Below, in pieces: positions 8,907 to 22,833 of a stretch of DNA of 64,000 nt. Made by a program: the position numbers and the translations under genes. Numbering within the stretch: the first letter of the stretch is position 1; each line of letters starts with the position of its first letter. The DNA is taken from positions 124,001 to 188,000 of the forward strand of contig JAURJU010000050.1 of assembly GCA_030832085.1 (NCBI GenBank), read 5' to 3'. Source of the stretch: Chitinophagales bacterium. GTDB taxonomy: Bacteria; Bacteroidota; Bacteroidia; Chitinophagales; Chitinophagaceae. The notes under the pieces are model-generated. The model ran no database searches and was not told the origin of the DNA. It saw nothing but the letters and a program-made list of their open reading frames with translations.

Positions 8907-9018
8907 AAATAAGATTTAATTTCCAGCACGCTTTACCCCTTTGGCTTAACAATTTAATAATCCTGATGAATTGCGATTTGCGGAAACAGCAGTTTAACTT
9001 TACATAAACATACCAGCC

Positions 9019-9699
9019 ATGGCGCCAGCCGCAAAAAAGATCCTTATTGCAGACGATGAGCCAGATATCCTGGAGATCATCGCTTATAATCTGCAACTGC
9101 ATGGATATGAGGTGGTTACAGCCAAAGATGGAGACCAGGCACTGCAGAAAGCCAGAGAAATCAATCCTGACCTCATCATTCTTGACATCATGATGCCCAA
9201 TAAAAATGGCATAGAAGTCTGCAAAATACTCCGTTCCCAACCTGCATTTGAAAAAACCCTGATTGTTTTTCTTACTGCCTTGAACGACGAACTCTCGCAT
9301 GTCAAGGGTCTTGAATTTGGTGCAGATGATTTCATCAGCAAGCCCATCTCTCCCAAAGTCATGGTTTCTAAAGTCAATGCTTTCTTCAGGCGCTTGCTCA
9401 AGCCCGAAGAAAGCAAGGCCATTGAAATTGGGGAACTGAGAATTGAGCCCGAAGAATACATGGTGTATTTCAAAGGGCAGCCCATCAACCTTGCCAAGAA
9501 AGAATTTGAACTTCTTGGATATCTCGCATCAAAACCTGGTAGGGTATTTCTTCGCAATGAAATACTCAACCAGATTTGGGGAAGCGAAGTTATTGTTGGA
9601 GACCGCACCATTGATGTACACATCAGAAAAATCAGACAAAAGTTAGGTATCGATTGCATAACCACCGTCAAAGGGGTTGGATACAAATTTGAAGTCTGA
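9019..9699 (+). CDS. OmpR/PhoB-family response regulator
   Basis: 226 aa; receiver domain (ADDEPDILE, LIILDIMMP, FLTA, SKPIS) plus winged-helix DNA-binding domain (RTIDVHIRKIRQKLG, VKGVGYKF). Confidence 0.95.
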   Translation: MAPAAKKILIADDEPDILEIIAYNLQLHGYEVVTAKDGDQALQKAREINPDLIILDIMMPNKNGIEVCKILRSQPAFEKTLIVFLTALNDELSHVKGLEFGADDFISKPISPKVMVSKVNAFFRRLLKPEESKAIEIGELRIEPEEYMVYFKGQPINLAKKEFELLGYLASKPGRVFLRNEILNQIWGSEVIVGDRTIDVHIRKIRQKLGIDCITTVKGVGYKFEV

Positions 9700-9738: not shown

Positions 9739-10797
9739 ATGTTCGATTCCAAGAACTATTCGCCCGTAAAAATCGCTTTTTTGACCTCCCTGGTAGCAGG
9801 CTTGTTGGCCGCAATTGCTGGTAGCTTGGGGTCCAAGAATATTGTACTGGGTGCCATCATTTTGCTGCTGGTATTTTTTTCCACCTATTTCATTTCCCGC
9901 TACCTCATTGAAAAATTCATCCACAGGCAAATTAAATTGATTTACAAATTTATTCATCAAACCAAGGCATCCAAGAGAGAAGAGTTTTTTTTGAAAAAAG
10001 TACTGCCCAAACAAAGCCTGGAGGAGGTTGGGGAGGAAGTGCTGCAGTGGGCAGATCAGCGAAAAACAGAAATGGAAATCCTTGAAAAAAACGAGGCATT
10101 CAGAAAGGAATTCCTGCAAAATCTTTCGCATGAATTCAAAACGCCTGCATTTGCCATTCAAGGATATTTGGAAACTCTTTTGTCCGGCGCCATGAACAAT
10201 CCGGAAGTGAGCCAAAAATTCCTTTCCAATGCATTCAAAAACACAGAGCGATTGATCAACCTGATTTCAGATCTTGATGAAATCACGAAATTGGAAAGTG
10301 GCAAACAGGAACTCCATTATCAGCACTTCATCATACAAGACCTTGTTACAGATGTTTATGAAGCGCTGACCATTAAATCAGAGGCAAAAATGATCCGTTG
10401 CCTGATCAAAAAAGGCTGTGAACAACCCATCAAAGTGTATGCAGACAAGGAAAAAATCAGACAGGTATTGATCAATCTTGTTCACAACGCCATCAAATAT
10501 GGCAACCAGGAGGGAAAAATAGAAGCCAGCATGTACAAAACTGAGAACAACAACGTGTTGGTGGAAATCACAGACGATGGCATTGGAATTGCGGAAGAAC
10601 ATATTCCCCGGATCTTTGAACGATTCTACAGGACTGATTATGGAAGAAGCAGAAACATAGGGGGCACAGGACTTGGATTGGCCATCTGCAAGCACATCAT
10701 TGAGGCCCACGGAGAATTTATACAAGCAAGAAGTACTCCTGGCATTGGAACAACATTTGGATTTACATTAAAAGTTGGGAAGGAACAATTGCGCTAA
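9739..10797 (+). CDS. Sensor histidine kinase (PhoR-like)
   Basis: 352 aa; two TM helices, LSHEFKTP H-box, N-box LVHNAIKYG, DDGIGI, GGTGLGLAICKHI. Confidence 0.93.
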   Translation: MFDSKNYSPVKIAFLTSLVAGLLAAIAGSLGSKNIVLGAIILLLVFFSTYFISRYLIEKFIHRQIKLIYKFIHQTKASKREEFFLKKVLPKQSLEEVGEEVLQWADQRKTEMEILEKNEAFRKEFLQNLSHEFKTPAFAIQGYLETLLSGAMNNPEVSQKFLSNAFKNTERLINLISDLDEITKLESGKQELHYQHFIIQDLVTDVYEALTIKSEAKMIRCLIKKGCEQPIKVYADKEKIRQVLINLVHNAIKYGNQEGKIEASMYKTENNNVLVEITDDGIGIAEEHIPRIFERFYRTDYGRSRNIGGTGLGLAICKHIIEAHGEFIQARSTPGIGTTFGFTLKVGKEQLR

Positions 10798-11818
10798 AAT
10801 CCTCTATCTTGTCTGGCTCCAAACAAGAATTTAAGGGATGAACAACTTCACCAATAATGGATTGAACCGGATTGGACAGTTCCAACCGCTCAACCGGCCC
10901 AGCATCGAAGAGCCACTTGTTGAAAAAAACCGGAAAATCATCATCCATGTTAGTGGCAATGCTTACATTAAAATCCCTCAACGCAGCTGCATTGCAGGCC
11001 TGTTCATACTGACCCTTCATGGGCATGACCATGAGTTTTTTTTCCAGAAATAACGCTTCTGAAGGTGTTTCAAAACCTGCTCCTGTTATAATACCATGAC
11101 AATTGATCATGCTTTTATCAAAAAGCGACTGGCTGATTGGAAGTATATTAACGTTCTCTAATTGACAAATGTGTTCTGACTTCCTTGAAAAAAGGTGAAA
11201 CCTGGTTTTTTTCAATTTGAGCAACTGTTGTAAAACGATCTCATCAGCATATTGTCCGAGGTATACGGTGATATGGCCCTCGTCGCTGGGATTGGCATGT
11301 AAAATGGATGGCTTGATGATGGGTGAAAAGACTTGTGCATCATACTGTTTAAAATGAAGGCCAACGGACCTTGAACCACCGGCATAATTGGCAAGCACCC
11401 ACTCTCCAATTCTATTTCTCTTTTCCGGTCGGGGCACCTTTTTGCTTGCGAAACTAGCCTGGTGACCAAAATGCACTGAAGGAATTCGCTTGAGTTTACA
11501 GGCCAGAGATGTGACACATTCAAAATCGTTGATGACCAAATCATATTTCTCCACTGGAAGGTACCTGGCCTCGTTCCACAATTTCTGCAATTGTAGGGAA
11601 GCCAAGGTCTTGCAAATATCAATACCGCCGGAAGAAAGTTCGTATTGCAAACTGACGCCTTTGCTTCTGTAAGCCACAGGCAAGTTGGTCCTCAAGGCAC
11701 TGTTGCTGCCACTCAGGAAAACATCTACTGTTCCATATTTTTTTAGCAATGGGAGAATTGCATTGGCCCTGCTGATATGGCCGTTTCCGGTTGCCTGAAC
11801 TGCGTAAAATATTTTCAT
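10763..11818 (-). CDS. Glycosyltransferase-like protein (Glyco_trans_1_3-type)
   Basis: 351 aa; VQATGNGHISRANAIL N-terminus and C-terminal ITGAGFETPSEALFLEKKLMVMPMKGQYEQACNA. Confidence 0.75.
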   Translation of the reverse strand: MKIFYAVQATGNGHISRANAILPLLKKYGTVDVFLSGSNSALRTNLPVAYRSKGVSLQYELSSGGIDICKTLASLQLQKLWNEARYLPVEKYDLVINDFECVTSLACKLKRIPSVHFGHQASFASKKVPRPEKRNRIGEWVLANYAGGSRSVGLHFKQYDAQVFSPIIKPSILHANPSDEGHITVYLGQYADEIVLQQLLKLKKTRFHLFSRKSEHICQLENVNILPISQSLFDKSMINCHGIITGAGFETPSEALFLEKKLMVMPMKGQYEQACNAAALRDFNVSIATNMDDDFPVFFNKWLFDAGPVERLELSNPVQSIIGEVVHPLNSCLEPDKIEDFSAIVPSQLLM

Positions 11819-11823
11819 TTTCT

Positions 11824-12699
11824 TCAGTGCGCTGCTGTTGCAATTGAGGTGAAAAATAGGGCAACTTCATCCGTCAAGACGTTCAACATTGGAATTTTGT
11901 TTACTGTGGTTAAGGCATTTTGATCCTTGAGGAAATCTGCTGTTTCTTCGAAGAAGTGGATATCCCAATTGCCTTCTGAATACTCAAGGGAACTGAGATT
12001 CTCTATCCAATCCCCACTGTTCATATAAACAACAGAACCTTTTGGGCTGGTCACTTCCCTGATTTGAGGCTGGTGGATGTGACCGCAGATGACATTGGCA
12101 TATCCGTTTTCAATCGCTAATTCAGCAGCAGTGTCTTCAAAATTCCCAATCCATGCCACTGCTTTTTTTACACCATTTTTCACTTTCTTACTAAAGCTCA
12201 TTTTCTCACGGCCCAAGGATTTCAGTATCCAGTTGATGAACCTGTTCAACAGAATCAACAGGTCGTAACCATGTCCTCCAAGTTTTGCAATAAACTTGGC
12301 ACTCCCCTTTGTCGTTGCATCAAAAACATCTCCATGAAAAATCCATGTTTTTTTACCATCAATATCCACGACCAGCTTATCTACCAGCTGGAAATTGCCC
12401 AACTGTATTCCACTGTATCTTCGGAGTGATTCATCATGGTTTCCAGTGACATAAATAATTTGTGTACCCTTGGACATCAAGCCAAATATTTCCTTGATAA
12501 CCTGCATATGGGATGATGGAAAATAATGTTTTCTAAATTGCCAAATGTCAATGATATCACCGTTTAGAACAAGCAATTTGGGCTGAATGGACCTGAGGTA
12601 TGCAACCAGTTCAGCCGCATGACATCCATAGGTACCCAAGTGAAGGTCGCTGATGACTGCTACTTCTAATTTTCTTTTGTTCATGAAAAGGGATTTCAT
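11824..12699 (-). CDS. Calcineurin-like metallophosphoesterase, UDP-2,3-diacylglucosamine diphosphatase (LpxH)-like; internal start near 12684 possible
   Basis: ISDLHLGTYG, LNGDIIDIW, VTGNHDE, FHGDVFD, CGHIHQP metallophosphoesterase motifs. Confidence 0.85.
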   Translation of the reverse strand: MKSLFMNKRKLEVAVISDLHLGTYGCHAAELVAYLRSIQPKLLVLNGDIIDIWQFRKHYFPSSHMQVIKEIFGLMSKGTQIIYVTGNHDESLRRYSGIQLGNFQLVDKLVVDIDGKKTWIFHGDVFDATTKGSAKFIAKLGGHGYDLLILLNRFINWILKSLGREKMSFSKKVKNGVKKAVAWIGNFEDTAAELAIENGYANVICGHIHQPQIREVTSPKGSVVYMNSGDWIENLSSLEYSEGNWDIHFFEETADFLKDQNALTTVNKIPMLNVLTDEVALFFTSIATAAH

Positions 12700-12772
12700 G
12701 AAATTCCCATGTTACCATGAAGTGAATGTTAGCTGCTGATGAATTTATCCTGACCAAAAGGTAAAGCGAATG

Positions 12773-13654
12773 TTATGAACCAGAAATGGCATAAAGGTGT
12801 TGGATCAAGCCATCAGCCAATCCAATTTTGGGAACCAGCATTTCCTCCATGTTTCCCCATTTCATAACTTGAGTATAGATCATCAAGGCTGGTACGATGA
12901 CATCTGCCCTGTCCTCCCTAAGGTTGTAAAGCCTGATGCGATCCTGAACTGAGCAGGATGAAAACTCCTTGTGATAATCTTTGAGGACATCGATGTGTAG
13001 CGGCTTGCCGTCTTTCTTCTTGCTGAGGGAGAAAACCTTGTTGATATTGCCTCCTGTGCCTATAGCAATGGTATTTTTCAGGCCACGCAGGTGTTCCCGC
13101 AAGGCCTCTTTCATTTCCGCCCAGTCTTCGTCAGAAACCATGTTTTTTAACAACCGAATGGTCCCGATATTGAATGAGCGTTTGTACATCAGGGTATTGT
13201 TGCTGAACAATGTAAGTTCAGTGCTTCCGCCGCCCACATCCACGTAAAGGTAATTGCTATTGACATTCAGGTTCTCCGCGACATGTGATTCATAGATCAA
13301 TGCAGCCTCAAAATCTCCTGTAATCACCTTGATGTTTATGCCAGTTTCCAGATAAATTTTTCTCACTACTTCACTGCTGTTTCTAGCATCACGCATGGCA
13401 CTTGTGGCCACAGCAATGGACTTCTCCACTCCGTATGCACTCATCAAATGGGCATACGCCTTCATGGTTTGAAGCACCATCTGCTTTTTTTCCTTTGAAA
13501 TCTCACCTGTTTCAAAAACATCAAACCCCAAACGAAGTGGAACCCGGATGAGATTGAGCTTGTTAAAGGCAGGCTTCCCCGAAATAGATGGAAGCACCTC
13601 GGAAATAAGGAGCCTGCTTGCATTTGTACCTATATCGATTGCTGCCAGTCGCAC
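12773..13654 (-). CDS. Ppx/GppA-family phosphatase (exopolyphosphatase-like)
   Basis: 293 aa; AAIDIGTNASRLLI, VATSAMRDARN, VDVGGGSTELTLF, IGTGGNINK. Confidence 0.92.
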   Translation of the reverse strand: MRLAAIDIGTNASRLLISEVLPSISGKPAFNKLNLIRVPLRLGFDVFETGEISKEKKQMVLQTMKAYAHLMSAYGVEKSIAVATSAMRDARNSSEVVRKIYLETGINIKVITGDFEAALIYESHVAENLNVNSNYLYVDVGGGSTELTLFSNNTLMYKRSFNIGTIRLLKNMVSDEDWAEMKEALREHLRGLKNTIAIGTGGNINKVFSLSKKKDGKPLHIDVLKDYHKEFSSCSVQDRIRLYNLREDRADVIVPALMIYTQVMKWGNMEEMLVPKIGLADGLIQHLYAISGS

Positions 13655-13660
13655 GTATTC

Positions 13661-15763
13661 TTACCGGTTATTTTTTAACAGGTGATTGTAAATCTCCTGT
13701 TGTGAGCGTATGCGTTTTCTACCTGGTGAAGATACATAGTTGTTCATAAACTCCGGATCTAAAATCCTTGCCTTGACGTTGTCACTCAATTGAATCTTCA
13801 AAATCTCCAACAACTCCTTTTTCAGGTCGTTGTCAAGAATAGGGCAAGCGGCCTCTACCCGATGGTCAAGGTTTCGCACCATCCAGTCGGCACTTGAAAT
13901 AAACATCAGCACATTGCCCCCATTGTGGAAAACCAATACCCTTGCATGTTCCAGGTATGCATCTACAATGCTGATGGCAAATGGTGATGAAAATGGCTTT
14001 TTCTTTGTTTGTCTTTTTGCTGAATAAATCCCCCGAATGATCAGATTGACTTCAACTCCAGCAACAGTGGCTTGATTGAGCTTTTCAATCAGCGATACGT
14101 CACTGAGTGAATTCAATTTCAATGTTATCGATGCAGGGAAGCCTTTTTTTGCCTCCTTTATCTCCTTGTCAATCAATTCATTGATCTTTTTTCGCATGCC
14201 GACAGGACTCACCAAAACTGTCTTACAGTCCTGCAATGCACTTGCATGTGACAATGGATTTTCCAGGAAATAAAAAATCCTGTTGATATCTGCCATGATA
14301 TTCCGGTTGGACGTAAGCAGGCAATGATCACCATAGAAATTGGCAGTTTTTTCATTCAGGTTTCCTGTACTCACAAATCCATATTGAACGGTACGATTAT
14401 GCATGCGTTTATTGATGATGCAGACCTTTGCGTGAACTTTCATGTTTGGAATGCCCAAAATCACCTTGACGCCTTCCTCTTCAAGGACTGCTTTCCATTC
14501 AAGGTTTGCCTCTTCATCAAAGCGCGCCTTCAATTCCAACATCACTTCAACTTTTTTACCATTGCGGGCAGCATTGACCAGTGCATTGATGACTTTGGAT
14601 TCGGAAGCCAACCTATAAGCGGTTATCTTGATAGATTTAACATCAGGATCAATTGCCGCCTCCCGCAAGAGATCAATAATTGCATTGAAAGAATGGTAAG
14701 GAAAATGAAGCAATATGTCCTTTTTCACAATTACATCCGTTACCCGGATGGCAGAATTCAGGGACGGGTGTGGAATTGCAACCGTCTTTCTTTTGCTGTT
14801 AGGGAATACATCCGGAAAATCCATAAAATGTTTGAAATTGTGGATTCTGCCTCCCGGGATAATACTCGATTTATTGTTGAGTTTCAATTTCTTGATCAAG
14901 TAATTCAACAACCCACTGTTCATCTCCTTATCATACACGAACCGGACCGGTTTTCCTTTTCGACGTTTTTTTAAACCCTTTTGTATTTTTTCAACGAATG
15001 AAGTGCTGACGTCATTGTCCAGGTCAATCTCGGCATCTTTGGTCACCTTGAAAATATTTGCTTCAAAATGGTCATATCCAAAATAGGAAAATATATAGGG
15101 CAAGTTGACCCGCACGATATCCTCCAACAGGATAATATGTGTTTCGCCTTTGGGAGTTGGCAGTTTCACAAACCTGCCAAGTGTTTTAGAGGGAATTTCA
15201 ATCAAAGCATATTTTTGCTTGTATGCAGAATTTTTCTTTTGCATTACCACACCAAGGTATATGCTTTTATCCCGCAGATAAGGCAGTTCAGGTAAACCTT
15301 CAATCATCAGAGGAATGATGTTGGACCGCACCTCATTTTCAAAATATTCAATCACAAACATCTTTTGATCCTTTGTAAGCTGTTGATCGTTCTTAATGAA
15401 AATCCTGTCCTTTTTCATCTCAAGTTGAATATTGGCCCAGATGCGATCAAATTCACTTTGCTGTTTCAATACGATGTGCAACAGGTCAACCAAAACCTCA
15501 GACACATCATTTTCCATATGGATGTTGAGCCTAGTCTTGCTGGATGTCAACTCAGCCATTCGTTTTAAAGTTGCCACCCGCACACGAAAAAACTCATCCA
15601 TGTTATTTGAAAATATTCCCAAAAAACGAATTCGTTGATTGGTGGGGACAGAAGGGTCGTTGGCTTCCTGCAATACCCGCGCATTGAAACTCAGCCAACT
15701 GATGTCTCGTTGCACAAAACCTGACTTGTTCACCATAAGATCGATTTTCCGATTACTATTCAT
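13661..15763 (-). CDS. ppk1: Polyphosphate kinase 1
   Basis: 700 aa; RDISWLSFNARVLQEA, FFRVRVATL, PYHSFNAIIDLLREAA, KVHAKVCII, YGFVSTGNLNEKTA. Confidence 0.97.
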   Translation of the reverse strand: MNSNRKIDLMVNKSGFVQRDISWLSFNARVLQEANDPSVPTNQRIRFLGIFSNNMDEFFRVRVATLKRMAELTSSKTRLNIHMENDVSEVLVDLLHIVLKQQSEFDRIWANIQLEMKKDRIFIKNDQQLTKDQKMFVIEYFENEVRSNIIPLMIEGLPELPYLRDKSIYLGVVMQKKNSAYKQKYALIEIPSKTLGRFVKLPTPKGETHIILLEDIVRVNLPYIFSYFGYDHFEANIFKVTKDAEIDLDNDVSTSFVEKIQKGLKKRRKGKPVRFVYDKEMNSGLLNYLIKKLKLNNKSSIIPGGRIHNFKHFMDFPDVFPNSKRKTVAIPHPSLNSAIRVTDVIVKKDILLHFPYHSFNAIIDLLREAAIDPDVKSIKITAYRLASESKVINALVNAARNGKKVEVMLELKARFDEEANLEWKAVLEEEGVKVILGIPNMKVHAKVCIINKRMHNRTVQYGFVSTGNLNEKTANFYGDHCLLTSNRNIMADINRIFYFLENPLSHASALQDCKTVLVSPVGMRKKINELIDKEIKEAKKGFPASITLKLNSLSDVSLIEKLNQATVAGVEVNLIIRGIYSAKRQTKKKPFSSPFAISIVDAYLEHARVLVFHNGGNVLMFISSADWMVRNLDHRVEAACPILDNDLKKELLEILKIQLSDNVKARILDPEFMNNYVSSPGRKRIRSQQEIYNHLLKNNR

Positions 15764-15830: not shown

Positions 15831-17045
15831 ATGAACACAACCAAAAAGTCCATATTGACGTATTTTTTGGCTTTCTTTTGGGGCAATATAGTCCTGGGTC
15901 TTGGAAGCATCCAAGAAAACCGCATCCAATTCTCATTTCTTGGCAAGGAATACTCCATTAAAGCAAAAGAAATACCTGGCGGCTTTCCTAAAAGCCATAG
16001 CAGCCAAAAGAGCTTCACTGAAATAACTTTGGCTTTAGAGAAAAATTGTGCAGGGATAATTCCTGAGATATCCGCCATCAAAAAATCGCTTGATTTGTCT
16101 GATTGGTTATACTATCAACTCATAAGGAAGGTATCACAACAGTTGTTTCCAAAAGAAGAGGATTATTGGGGATACACCTATTGCAAACGATTTTTCTTGG
16201 CAAGCTGCGGGTTCAATCCCTTGCTGTGTACAATTGATAATAAACTGCTTCTATACATTCAAAGCAACTCAACAATCTACAATGTTCCCATCAAGATGGT
16301 TTCAGGAAAGCAATATGTATGCCTGAACTTTCATGACCATGATTTTGACGTCCCCCTTGAGAGAGAGGTGCCGAGAATCATTGAAAAATCAAATAATGAA
16401 AATGGGGTGGCTTTCGACTATGAAATCAGCGTCATGCCAGATTTACCAGCTGAAAAATACATCGATAAAAAGATTGAGTTCAAATACAAGAATACTATTC
16501 AAAAATTTGACATCAAGGTATTCCCCGAAATAAAAGACTACTTCAAGAATTATCCAGTAACAGACTACAGGTTTCAATTCAATATACCTCTCAGCAAAGC
16601 CACTTATGCTTCTATCATTTTGCCTCTTAAAAGAAAACTAGAGAACAAAACAGTTGCATACGGCGTAGAGTATATCCTGTTTCTAGTAAGAAATGCATTT
16701 TTCTATGAAGCGGATTCGACCCTGTATGGCAGGGAAAAAAGATTTTCACCTGAAGAGGCACTGGCCTCAGAAAGAAGTGATTGTGAAGATTACGCAGGAT
16801 TGTTTTTTTCCCTTATACGTGAAGTGTACAATATTCCAATGATCGTACTCAGCTATCCGGACCACGTCAATGTAGGGGTGGCTTTGAAGAAGCCAAAATA
16901 CAAAACCATCCTTCACAATGGCATTGAATATACCATTTGTGAACCTACACCACAGAAAAAAAATCTTCACCTAGGTCAAATGGCAAAAAAAACCGAAAAA
17001 CAACCCCATGAAATTGTATACGTATTTGAACCCAAAAACAATTGA
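15831..17045 (+). CDS. Secreted transglutaminase-like cysteine protease-fold protein
   Basis: 404 aa; N-terminal hydrophobic segment; ASERSDCEDYAGLFFSLIREVYNIPMIVLSYPDHVNVGVA matches the transglutaminase-like Cys/His arrangement. Confidence 0.7.
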   Translation: MNTTKKSILTYFLAFFWGNIVLGLGSIQENRIQFSFLGKEYSIKAKEIPGGFPKSHSSQKSFTEITLALEKNCAGIIPEISAIKKSLDLSDWLYYQLIRKVSQQLFPKEEDYWGYTYCKRFFLASCGFNPLLCTIDNKLLLYIQSNSTIYNVPIKMVSGKQYVCLNFHDHDFDVPLEREVPRIIEKSNNENGVAFDYEISVMPDLPAEKYIDKKIEFKYKNTIQKFDIKVFPEIKDYFKNYPVTDYRFQFNIPLSKATYASIILPLKRKLENKTVAYGVEYILFLVRNAFFYEADSTLYGREKRFSPEEALASERSDCEDYAGLFFSLIREVYNIPMIVLSYPDHVNVGVALKKPKYKTILHNGIEYTICEPTPQKKNLHLGQMAKKTEKQPHEIVYVFEPKNN

Positions 17046-17585: not shown

Positions 17586-18977
17586 TTAGTACGCCTTGTT
17601 TTGCGGATCCCAGTTTGTCCAACCGGTGGTCCAGTCTGTAGTACCCATGGCGCCACGGAAGGTAGTGGGCGTAAAATATGAATTCATCCCGGTGAAGCTT
17701 ACACCGGAAAGTGCAGGAGAACCGGTGTTTGGCAAAAAGTTGGGGGCTGTAGAATAAAATGGAGACTTCAACATGGCAGCATCAGCTGTTGACAATGATA
17801 TGCATCCATCAGTTTCAGCCTTGGTTTTCATTTGTGCAGGTGTAACAATGGCCAATGCTGCTGCATCATTCCTATAAACATTGGCAGCATCATTGGAATG
17901 CAGCAGGTTATTCTTGAATTCAGAAAGATTGTCTACATAGTAGGCCTTTGCAGTATTTGCAGATTCAAAAGAAAGACCACCTTTGGGCCAACCCATAACA
18001 ATAGAATTTCTCAATACAAACTGAGTGGACCTCCTCCACCGGTTGCCAAAATTGTGGTTGGCTGCTGTTCCTGTTGCATTGTTGGCCCCCACAATCGTAA
18101 AATTGCTCAACTGAGGTCTAGTAAATGGAGTTGCAGTAGTACCAGTTCCATCATTGTCGCACTCAATGCCATTTCCAGCATCACCAGCATCAACAAAATC
18201 AGGTTTGCGACAGGCAATACCGTATTGAATTTTACCAGTATAGCCGAAGTCAAAATCGAAATCATCATCAGCAGTGGCAAATGCTATCAGGTTCTTGCAG
18301 TTCACTGTTCCACCAAACCACTCATAGGCATCATCGTTACCAAAAGAAACCTGTATGTTTTCGATGATGGTTCCCGAACCAACGCCACCCATGGTAAGAC
18401 CATTGATTTCAGATCCGGGTTCGGCTGCAATTCCAGCATATTCAATGCGAACGAAACGAAGAATTCCACTTTCGTCGTTTGCATCAGTGCCACCAAATTT
18501 CCTGCCTACACCACCCTCAACGGTTGGAGCAGGATCTTGGGGACGGTTGGTTGGTGCTTTACCCAAGAGTATGATTCCACCCCAATCGCCAGGCGTCCTT
18601 TGCCCAATGGACTTCCCACTGGTGAATACGATGGGATCAGTCGCCCGACCATCAGCAATCAATTTAGCCCCTCGTTCAATGATCAAAGCTCCTTTCTCAG
18701 TAATATCACTCACTATTACGCTCCCTGGAGCAATTGTGAAGGTGTTGCCATCAGTGATATAAACATAACCCTTCAGTGTATATTTACCCTTGGGCAAATA
18801 ATAACTTTTGTTTAAAATACCCTGAATGATTCCACCATTGGTAGCAGGGTCTTGTGGATCAGAAGAAACAGTTCCACCACCTGTAGTATTATTAACGGTT
18901 TCTTCGAAATTGACTTTAATGCAAGAGCTGACTGAGAACAAGGTAATGGCTACAATTGCCAAGAAAACTCTTTTCAT
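17586..18977 (-). CDS. Surface lipoprotein, right-handed beta-helix-like, paired with TonB receptor
   Basis: 463 aa; lipobox VSSC; repetitive beta-helix-like sequence (ALIIERGAKLIADGRATDPIVFTSG, ATADDDFDFDFGYTG). Confidence 0.7.
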   Translation of the reverse strand: MKRVFLAIVAITLFSVSSCIKVNFEETVNNTTGGGTVSSDPQDPATNGGIIQGILNKSYYLPKGKYTLKGYVYITDGNTFTIAPGSVIVSDITEKGALIIERGAKLIADGRATDPIVFTSGKSIGQRTPGDWGGIILLGKAPTNRPQDPAPTVEGGVGRKFGGTDANDESGILRFVRIEYAGIAAEPGSEINGLTMGGVGSGTIIENIQVSFGNDDAYEWFGGTVNCKNLIAFATADDDFDFDFGYTGKIQYGIACRKPDFVDAGDAGNGIECDNDGTGTTATPFTRPQLSNFTIVGANNATGTAANHNFGNRWRRSTQFVLRNSIVMGWPKGGLSFESANTAKAYYVDNLSEFKNNLLHSNDAANVYRNDAAALAIVTPAQMKTKAETDGCISLSTADAAMLKSPFYSTAPNFLPNTGSPALSGVSFTGMNSYFTPTTFRGAMGTTDWTTGWTNWDPQNKAY

Positions 18978-19006: not shown

Positions 19007-21826
19007 TTATTTTGTTTTTTTGCTGATATTAAAGTCATAAGTAAATCCTACTGAAATGGTTGATCCTGGTGTATAGGAATTGAACAACCTGTCAACTCCA
19101 CTTTTGAAGGCAGTGGGGCCATCAACGTTTTCATAGAAATAAAATGCATTGTTGAGAATGTCTGCAAAATTGATTTTAATCTCTCCCTTGCCGTCAATGA
19201 CCTTTTTGGAGAGCTGAAGGTCCAGCTGGTTCCTTGGGCGTTCAAATACATTGGGAAACTCCTCATTACCGACCAATGCAAGGCGTTCTCCAACCCTGTT
19301 GTACAATAGGGATGCATTGAATTGTGTGCTACTAAACTGTAAGCCTGCGTTGATGAGGAATGGTGATTGTCCTTGCAAGGGCCTGTCTGCCTTAACTGCT
19401 TTGTTGCCAGCACTGATATCATTGAAGGTGACTTCAGATCGGATATAGGTATAATTTCCAAAAAATGCGAAATTCTTCAGCACGGGAGAAATGAATTCTA
19501 GCCCAGTTCTCGCTTCCAACTCGAAGCCAAAAGTTTTTGCATTGATGGCATTTTGATAGAAATACCTGCGGGAATCTCCATTGCTAGAAGGGTCGAGCCT
19601 GAATTCAATCGGATTGGAGAAATCTTTGTAGAAAGCACCAACCGTGATTGCTTCGCCTGCCTTGGGATAGAGCTCATACCTGACATCATAGTTTAGGATG
19701 GAGCTTCTCAACAGTCCCGTATCACCCTTCACTCCATAGTTCATTTCATAATCATAAAATGCAAATTCTGCTATTTCCCTGAATTCAGGGCGTGCAACAG
19801 TCCTGCTAGCAGACAACCTGATGTTCTGCTTGTCGCCTGCATTCAAAGAAAGGTTAATGGAAGGTAGCAGGTCCAACTTTTCAGTGAGCCTTGTATTCCT
19901 GTTGCCGGTTTGATCTTTTGATGAAAGCAACTGTTGAAAATTTTCTGCCCTCAGCCCCCAAATAATCCTTGCAGGACCAAATTTGTTGTCCATCATACCA
20001 TATCCTGCATTCAAAACAGAAACACCGAAATACCTGTCTTGGTTGTTGGTAAACTCTTCCAAAACATAACCACTCTGGCCCATGTTATCATAGAAAAACG
20101 CAGACTCAATAGGTTTGAAGGCATTTGCTGCAACGAAAGAGTTGATGTTGGTGGTGTTGTACCTAAAAATTCGGCTCCTAAAGTCGCGGATGCGTGCAAG
20201 ACTTGAACCACCAATCTTCAGGGTTTGCTTGTCCTTGCCACCCCAGTTCATCGGAACGATGAACTGTCCCCCACCGCCAAAACTATAATCTTTTAAAGCA
20301 CTGTAAAACCTCCTTGTATCGTCAGGATCAATTTCAAATTTATTGTTCGTGTTGATGGCCCTTGCATACAATGCACTTCTGAGGTCTGGCTGTTTTTTAA
20401 GGTTATAACCTGCATTTCCATTCCATTTGAACTTGATACCTTTTGCAGTGAGCTGATGCTCCCCCTCAAGCTGAGCGCTGTAGAGTGAGCGCTGGCTCAT
20501 GTTGGATGAATAAAATTGGATATCATTCAACCGGCTGGTATTATAACCCTTTCTCGTATAATAATTGTCATCAAACAATTGATTGAAGAGATTCTTCAAG
20601 GAGACCTTGTGCCTGCCTTTAACCCAAGTGATGTTGGCCACTGCACCCAGATTGGTCTGGTAGCGATTCTGGTTATCGTTATAATTGAAAATCGTTGTTC
20701 CATTGGTCTCATAAAAAGATCGCTCTACATTGTAGACCAACATTGAATTCCTGTAATTTGCCGCAACCAGAACACCAAGGTTTGAACCATTTTTCAACTT
20801 ATGGTTTTGTGCGTAGGTGATATTGAAGGTTTTGATTGGAGCGGCATTCATTGTATGTTGCTGATATACATCCCCACGGAAAAGTTGCGTAAGCTCAATT
20901 TGTTTGTTCAATCCCCCTGCATCTTTACCCAACGCCCTGTACAACTGTGCAGTTGCAGGAAAGCTATCAGGAAGGGCTCTGGTTCCATCATCAAATCCCA
21001 GCCAATCATACTGGTTGCGCTGGTTGCTGACAAATGGCTTGAAAGTGGATTGGGTATTGTATCCCAGACCAAAACCAACCGTCAACAGATCCTTTGAAGG
21101 AATGTCTCTTGTATTTACCTGAACAAGCCCACCTGAAAATTCTCCTGTAAACTCAGGAGTTGCAGTTTTGTTGATGACAATGTTGTCAATCAAAGCAGCG
21201 GGAAACATGTCAAATGAAAATGCTTTCTTGTCGGGCTCGCTACTAGGCAAAAGGGCTGAATTGAGCATGGCTGAATTATAGCGGTCAGACAATCCACGCA
21301 CAATGACAAACTTGTTGTCTTGAACTGATGCTCCACTCACACGCTTCAACACCTCTCCAGTATTCTTATCTGGTGTTCTCCTGATAAAGTCAGCAGCCAG
21401 TCCGCTGGACATGGCAGGATTGTTCCGCTGGAAAGTCAGTAATGCGATACTGCTTTCCTGGCGGCGTGTGGACTTGATGACAATCGCGTCGCTGTTTTTA
21501 GACTGGGGCTCAAGCACTACTACAATGGAATTTTCACCTGATAAAGAAAACTCAAGGTCTGATACGGACTTTGAGTTGAATCCCACACTGGAGATTACAA
21601 TGCTATATTTTTTTCCAAGCTCCATTTTAATACTGAAGTTTCCCTGTACATCAGCAACAACAGTGTTTCTCGAACCTTCAACCATGATTGAAGCACCGGC
21701 AATGGGTTCATTTTGGGTATTGATGACCTTACCCAAGAATATTTGAACCTGTGCGAGCGATGTTGAAGAGGCCAAAAAAGAGAGGACCAAAACAAAGAAT
21801 AATCGGGATATTGGCTGCTTGAACAT
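19007..21826 (-). CDS. TonB-dependent outer-membrane receptor with N-terminal carboxypeptidase-regulatory-like domain
   Basis: 939 aa; signal peptide, GKVINTQNEPIAGASIMVEGSRNTVVADVQGNFSI, plug (VLKRVSGASVQDNKFVIVRGLSDRYN) and C-terminal beta-barrel sequence. Confidence 0.93.
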   Translation of the reverse strand: MFKQPISRLFFVLVLSFLASSTSLAQVQIFLGKVINTQNEPIAGASIMVEGSRNTVVADVQGNFSIKMELGKKYSIVISSVGFNSKSVSDLEFSLSGENSIVVVLEPQSKNSDAIVIKSTRRQESSIALLTFQRNNPAMSSGLAADFIRRTPDKNTGEVLKRVSGASVQDNKFVIVRGLSDRYNSAMLNSALLPSSEPDKKAFSFDMFPAALIDNIVINKTATPEFTGEFSGGLVQVNTRDIPSKDLLTVGFGLGYNTQSTFKPFVSNQRNQYDWLGFDDGTRALPDSFPATAQLYRALGKDAGGLNKQIELTQLFRGDVYQQHTMNAAPIKTFNITYAQNHKLKNGSNLGVLVAANYRNSMLVYNVERSFYETNGTTIFNYNDNQNRYQTNLGAVANITWVKGRHKVSLKNLFNQLFDDNYYTRKGYNTSRLNDIQFYSSNMSQRSLYSAQLEGEHQLTAKGIKFKWNGNAGYNLKKQPDLRSALYARAINTNNKFEIDPDDTRRFYSALKDYSFGGGGQFIVPMNWGGKDKQTLKIGGSSLARIRDFRSRIFRYNTTNINSFVAANAFKPIESAFFYDNMGQSGYVLEEFTNNQDRYFGVSVLNAGYGMMDNKFGPARIIWGLRAENFQQLLSSKDQTGNRNTRLTEKLDLLPSINLSLNAGDKQNIRLSASRTVARPEFREIAEFAFYDYEMNYGVKGDTGLLRSSILNYDVRYELYPKAGEAITVGAFYKDFSNPIEFRLDPSSNGDSRRYFYQNAINAKTFGFELEARTGLEFISPVLKNFAFFGNYTYIRSEVTFNDISAGNKAVKADRPLQGQSPFLINAGLQFSSTQFNASLLYNRVGERLALVGNEEFPNVFERPRNQLDLQLSKKVIDGKGEIKINFADILNNAFYFYENVDGPTAFKSGVDRLFNSYTPGSTISVGFTYDFNISKKTK

Positions 21827-21858
21827 AAATTAATTTGAAACACAAAAAAACAAGCTTG

Positions 21859-21924
21859 TCATTACCCCACCGTTAGCGCCTTGTTAACCAATTGTAACGG
21901 GTATGTTACGCCAATGTTAAGGGC
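21859..21924 (+). promoter_or_regulatory. 11-bp phased direct-repeat array (candidate tandem Pho box / PhoB-family operator)
   Basis: TCATTACCCCA|CCGTTAGCGCC|TTGTTAACCAA|TTGTAACGGGT|ATGTTACGCCA|ATGTTAAGGGC; six consecutive 11-mers, the last four matching (A/T)TGT(T/A)A(A/C). Confidence 0.65.
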
Positions 21925-21972
21925 AGAAAATCTTGTTAAAAAATCGCATCTTTGTATCTAGAAAATTATTGT

Positions 21973-22833
21973 ATGAAAGGAATCATTTTAGCAGGCGGTT
22001 CAGGTACCAGGCTTTACCCCATCACTTATGCGATCAGCAAGCAAATCATGCCTGTTTATGACAAACCAATGATCTATTATCCCCTTTCAACGCTCATGCT
22101 CTCAGGCATAAAAGATATCCTGATCATTTCCACTCCCCAAGACCTCCCTCAATTCAGAAAATTATTTGGTGATGGAAGCCATATCGGTTTGAACATGAGC
22201 TATGCCGAACAGCCCCTGCCCAATGGGTTGGCCCAGGCATTTGTAATTGGAAAGGATTTCATCGGCAATGATCCCTGTGCCCTAGTGCTCGGGGACAATA
22301 TATTTTACGGGGCGGGATTGGGAAAAACGCTTGAGAAAAACACGAACCCCGATGGTGGCATTGTGTACGCCTATCAGGTAAGTGATCCCGAAAGGTACGG
22401 TGTTGTTGAATTTGATGCCCAAATGAAAGCCATTTCAATAGAAGAAAAACCCGAACATCCCAAGAGCAGGTATGCTGTGCCGGGGCTTTATTTTTATGAC
22501 AACAATGTCGTGGAAATTGCAAAAAACATCAAGCCATCCCCAAGGGGTGAGTATGAAATCACCGACATCAACCTGGAATACCTCAACCGAGAAAAACTCA
22601 GTGTCTCCGTGCTCGACAGGGGTACCGCATGGCTGGATACCGGAACTTTTGATTCGCTCATGCAAGCCTCACAGTTCATCCAAGTAATTGAACAAAGGCA
22701 AGGCATAAAAGTCGCCTGCATAGAAGAAATCGCCTGGAGAAAAGGATTTATCAATACAGATCAGCTTGTTAAGCTTGCACATCCGCTACTCAAAAGCGGA
22801 TATGGAAAATACCTGATGGAACTCGTTAACTAA
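21973..22833 (+). CDS. rfbA: Glucose-1-phosphate thymidylyltransferase
   Basis: [42 protein letters not shown]; start placed at second Met of called ORF. Confidence 0.96.

Follow-up and report, generated by a model that had tools for sequence, protein, structure and literature searches.

A predicted six-unit PHO-box array at the promoter of a TonB receptor-lipoprotein operon in a Chitinophagales bacterium

Six contiguous 11-mers occupy positions 21859-21924 of the window (the whole 64,000-nucleotide stretch analysed here), within the 146-bp gap between a TonB receptor gene and rfbA. This array is very probably the PHO box of the TonB receptor-lipoprotein operon, through which PhoB would activate transcription under phosphate scarcity, and on comparative sequence evidence it is a well-resolved predicted PHO box for the Bacteroidota. 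An earlier interpretation made from the letters alone (the sequence-only reading) had proposed an operator for a PhoB-like regulator controlling the receptor, the rfbA-galE unit or both, with the repeats reading toward rfbA; the kind of operator (PhoB/OmpR family) stands, whereas the direction and the rfbA target do not.

On the receptor sense strand the units are CTTAACATTGG CGTAACATACC CGTTACAATTG GTTAACAAGGC GCTAACGGTGG GGTAATGACAA, with KTAACATT as the common form, which reads TGTTAM on the rfbA sense strand. All six 11-mers are present exactly as first written, and the decay described in two of them is borne out, the weaker pair being the two units closest to the TonB receptor. The features of the locus are collected in Table 1; no RNA elements or tRNAs were found in the 64-kb window.

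Table 1. Features of the phosphate locus, in window coordinates
Feature	Position	Strand	Basis
Six-unit 11-bp PHO-box array (predicted)	21859..21924	-	unit phase, matrix score, conservation
-7 box of TonB-receptor promoter, TTTTTTTG (consensus TAnnTTTG)	21843..21850	-	phase to array, consensus from PMC9723704
TonB-dependent receptor (PF07715 plug, PF13715, PF14905), domain set as in Fjoh_0545	19007..21826	-	
FII-like beta-helix lipoprotein, partner of the receptor and 29 bp downstream of it	17586..18977	-	
rfbA/rmlA, transcribed divergently, preceded by its own CATCTTTG (21947-21954); not the array's conserved target	21973..22833	+	
Polyphosphate kinase (Ppk1)	13661..15763	-	
Exopolyphosphatase (Ppx)	12773..13654	-	
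Degenerate candidate array upstream of metallophosphoesterase	12713..12778	-	15.3 bits over six units, Markov controls <=0.3
Metallophosphoesterase (PF00149/PF12850), PlcP-like; orthologs with arrays in relatives	11824..12699	-	
Glycosyltransferase (PF13528), downstream of phosphoesterase	10763..11818	-	
PhoR/PnpS-like sensor histidine kinase	9739..10797	+	
PhoB-like response regulator, probable binder	9019..9699	+	profile match, domains
Weak candidate array (about two units) just upstream of phoB	8981..9013	+	score near background

Upstream regions of receptor orthologs were collected from 40 related genomes and 80 named genome contigs, giving 106 scored regions. On the receptor sense strand, 91 of the 106 scored 15 or more out of 18 over three KTAACA units at period 11, compared with 0-4 of the 106 at each of the other periods between 7 and 16; the phasing on which the sequence-only reading had staked its proposal is thus kept in relatives. 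The sampled relatives are mutually related and their counts not independent, but the period control is unaffected by kinship because it is built on identical sequences. Using a position matrix trained on 72 relatives with receptor identity below 60%, we recovered the array as the top site in the window, at 46.4 bits over six units, against 15.3 bits for the runner-up and at most 0.3 bits in 40 Markov versions of the 64 kb. Among 13 close relatives, the TAAC core columns were more conserved (0.94) than the linker columns (0.67; p = 1.5e-6). The makeup is that of a PHO box, a 7-bp motif and four looser bases set as period-11 direct repeats, and period 11 alone is enriched.

The position of the array points to the receptor promoter. 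In the window, the TTTG of the receptor -7 box (Bacteroidota consensus TAnnTTTG, PMC9723704) begins 13 nt past the last array hexamer. The same spacing was found in 50 receptor promoters, and spacings of 2 or 24 nt in 22 more. Of the 74 scorable promoters, defined as those with TTTG within 40 nt, 72 thus keep it in a common phase (13 nt, or one 11-nt period more or less); two were out of phase, and 17 further promoters had no TTTG in that range. Such fixed-phase placement just upstream of the -10/-7 element is a further property of PHO boxes.

The divergent gene rfbA also carries a -7-like element, CATCTTTG at 21947, which the sequence-only reading had marked and which is present, but its distance from the array varies (24-34 nt by eye), in contrast to the fixed distance of the receptor box. 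It is unlikely that the array operates rfbA-galE, or both sides jointly, with nucleotide-sugar and envelope synthesis answering phosphate. Such a role would suit the window's own clade, where rfbA is immediately divergent at about 146 bp, and it would suit the units themselves, which read TGTTAM on the rfbA sense strand and so match the TGTCA-type orientation in which E. coli PHO boxes are usually written. In more distant loci holding both genes, however, rfbA is mostly divergent but 2-4 kb off, and the arrays stay at the receptor. The rfbA gene of L197 has no array, and that of L199, where the receptor is absent, reaches at most weak scores, with no clear array. One locus, L198 (genome G007), does have an array ahead of rfbA without a receptor, which would favour rfbA, but this array is partly decayed. 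It lies at 15147, between ppk and rfbA, with degenerate middle units, in a locus missing both the TonB receptor and its lipoprotein partner, and is possibly a relic of gene loss. Because the array keeps a fixed phase with the receptor -7 box and stays at the receptor when rfbA lies kilobases away, we assign it on positional grounds to the TonB receptor and not to the sugar-nucleotide gene; the same two observations rule out rfbA as a conserved target. Of the two targets first proposed, the receptor is therefore retained and rfbA-galE dropped, and the repeats, said to read toward rfbA, are instead phased to the minus-strand box.

In 87 of 93 loci, the receptor and lipoprotein genes are same-strand neighbours. 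The predicted structure of the lipoprotein is a high-confidence beta-rich fold (pLDDT 89.6), and its top PDB matches are pectate-lyase-like and related beta-helices, weak hits (best E 0.01) that indicate fold class only. Within 13 kb of the array lie the PhoB-like regulator, the PhoR-like kinase, ppk, ppx, the PlcP-like phosphoesterase and the glycosyltransferase, and in many families phoB is found within about 13 kb of the receptor on one contig. A conserved 404-aa protein of this cluster (15831-17045, plus strand) gave no Pfam or NCBIfam match; its homologs were found in the phosphate loci of many relatives. The arrangement resembles the PhoBR cluster of Flavobacterium johnsoniae (PUSIV, Fjoh_0541 to 0549), which comprises phoB, phoR, a TonB receptor, a beta-helix lipoprotein and a glycosyltransferase and is strongly induced at low phosphate, with log2 fold changes of 8.0 for Fjoh_0545 and 9.9 for Fjoh_0546 (PMC8115612). 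The receptor has the same Pfam set as Fjoh_0545 and its partner is a beta-helix protein, as assigned to Fjoh_0546, while the window cluster additionally holds ppk, ppx and the phosphoesterase. Only by analogy with these two genes would the receptor be expected to be induced at low phosphate.

Scanning 1.40 Mb of relative loci with the matrix yielded 347 positions above 17 bits at period 11, compared with 0-7 at six other periods. The genes that follow them include the receptor (90), the FII lipoprotein (30), phosphoesterase (6), phoB (2) and ppk (2), and among the remaining carriers are phosphate-selective porin O/P (PF07396), PhoU-like DUF47 and PAP2 phosphatase genes. Strong arrays lie upstream of phoB in L096, L100, L162 and L202. 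The array is thus common to phosphate-acquisition genes and the regulator gene, mainly in relatives. In four genomes searched whole, arrays also precede genes for a phosphonate HD oxygenase (TIGR03276, just under cut-off), a phosphonate-associated oxidoreductase (TIGR03364) and myo-inositol oxygenase (PF05153), and those at unrelated genes such as urocanase may be chance occurrences. The phosphonate-degradation and myo-inositol oxygenase arrays fall in L223, L226 and L227 (genomes G043 and G044), suggesting that phosphonate and inositol-phosphate use could fall under the same regulation. Large CarboxypepD_reg outer-membrane receptors carry arrays as well (L167 10428 and 10634, L150 8890, L160 10331, L136 11039, L140 13155), of PF25183 type where scanned (L167), and may also serve phosphorus uptake.

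In the organism's own genome, the array is the one strong site. The exact three-unit pattern has no second occurrence in the 2.89-Mb genome, relaxed patterns gave no clear further site exceeding the reversed-pattern controls, and the sites at the phosphoesterase, phoB and the PhoU-like gene are weak. The regulon looks very small here. Phosphoesterase orthologs in Chitinophaga-type loci carry clear arrays. The weak site ahead of phoB makes autoregulation possible. Upstream of the organism's PhoU-like DUF47 gene (G000:C7:21147-21749, L239), a weak two-unit site, CTTAACAATTTGGTAATC, scores near background and is the best place in that gene's 3.6-kb locus.

The probable binder of the array is the PhoB-like regulator at 9019. 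It scores 226 bits against a cut-off of 296 and 207 against 270 with the PhoB equivalog models TIGR02154 and NF053854, respectively, below the cut-off in both, yet these are its two best-scoring families. Its DNA-binding domain matches the PhoB-DNA complex 1gxp (E = 3.4e-16), and the protein has the receiver and winged-helix domains of PhoB and is encoded beside a PhoR-type kinase. The genome holds only three OmpR-type DNA-binding domains, this one included. Binding by one of the other two OmpR-family regulators, perhaps as part of an envelope or redox response, is very unlikely: the 11-bp direct repeat is common to OmpR-family sites, and PhoP of Riemerella anatipestifer binds a TTTAACA motif that its authors likened to ArcA (PMC9603813), but the array-bearing genes of relatives are those for phosphate, phosphonate, porin O/P and phoB, and no array lies near the genes of the two other regulators in the organism's own genome (best 1.4 bits). 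The Riemerella motif, obtained by DAP-seq, comes from the same phylum and regulator family and has a near-identical core; its 583 peaks were tied by the authors to virulence and redox, not phosphate (PMC9603813). Phosphate control is assigned to the array because of the genes that accompany it, and a PhoB-type reading of the site is well supported. The multimeric OmpR/PhoB-family operator first proposed likewise finds support in the conservation, the cluster content and the other array-bearing genes of relatives.

Across a sample of the phylum, arrays above 12 bits were found at 25 of 32 receptor homologs from outside the class, 6 of 6 from the same family and 9 of 25 from the same class, giving 40 matches at period 11 and at most three at any other tested period. 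The misses, at 16 of 25 same-class homologs and at all five from one family of the order, are uninformative because the sample contains paralogs, many of them among the same-class matches, and regions with poorly placed gene starts. Plain self-similarity is insufficient as proof of the array, since Tandem Repeats Finder does not list it even at score 30; the proof lies in phase and conservation. That the array is a fortuitous series of TGTTA-like words in AT-rich sequence, as its absence from the Tandem Repeats Finder output might suggest, is vanishingly improbable given period-specific conservation over many families, and the period controls rule it out.

PHO boxes of E. coli sit just upstream of the -10 element, replacing a good -35, and the array is placed likewise at the -7 box. 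In contrast to E. coli, arrays here usually have at least six units, of the form KTAACATT. Provided that TGTTA makes the same contacts as TGTCA, these units are reversed relative to the promoter (TGTTAM antisense). That the array would face its promoter opposite to the E. coli box is a lead drawn from comparing consensus sequences. The PhoP boxes of Bacillus are TTAACA-like multi-unit 11-nt repeats that resemble the GTTAACA found here, and both these and the GTTCACC boxes of Streptomyces lie on the sense strand. The Streptomyces boxes (GTTCACC N4) are again multi-unit 11-nt direct repeats resembling GTTAACA (PMC4415409); unlike either group, the array is coupled to TAnnTTTG, the -7 box of Bacteroidota, and belongs with TonB-receptor operons. 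A 7-bp motif with a 4-bp spacer in an 11-bp direct repeat, typical of OmpR/PhoB-family sites, is shared with the CTGTCAT repeats of the E. coli PhoB box (PMC4415409, PMC4832192). Six units are reasonable because cooperative binding of PhoP from Mycobacterium tuberculosis reaches trimers and tetramers on proper repeats (PMC4832192).

From the elements observed directly, namely the array, its conserved period, the -7 phase, the phosphate genes that accompany it and the phoBR cluster, we propose the following model. When phosphate is scarce, PhoR (9739) would phosphorylate PhoB (9019), and PhoB molecules would line up head-to-tail along the six units, each 11-bp unit taking up one helical turn. 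The PhoB molecule nearest the promoter would bring in the housekeeping sigma factor at the receptor -7 box, making a good -33 element dispensable. PhoB would thus act from the promoter-proximal end as an activator, not a repressor. The operon would supply an outer-membrane importer of the TonB-dependent type together with a surface lipoprotein of beta-helix fold, and these would scavenge phosphorus compounds as their probable substrate.

We lean slightly towards a broader reading, in which a KTAACATT array of about six units that replaces the -33 element, is phase-locked to TAnnTTTG and is reversed relative to E. coli represents the ancestral Bacteroidota PHO box. If so, the PhoB-sigma contact would differ from that in E. 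coli, and the array would have been kept with one TonB receptor-lipoprotein operon across classes of the phylum. TonB and SusCD systems of F. johnsoniae are known to be induced at low phosphate, but no operator for this induction was found in the openly licensed literature, nor was a published PHO box for Bacteroidota; neither 'Pho box' nor 'motif' appears in the text of the PhoBR paper (PMC8115612). The usual Pst transporter of high affinity is reportedly missing from plant-associated Bacteroidota (PMC8115612). A defined, phased box would make phosphate regulons predictable across this abundant phylum and would single out, among TonB receptors whose substrate is unknown, those devoted to phosphorus uptake, and its orientation poses the question of how PhoB contacts sigma in Bacteroidota.
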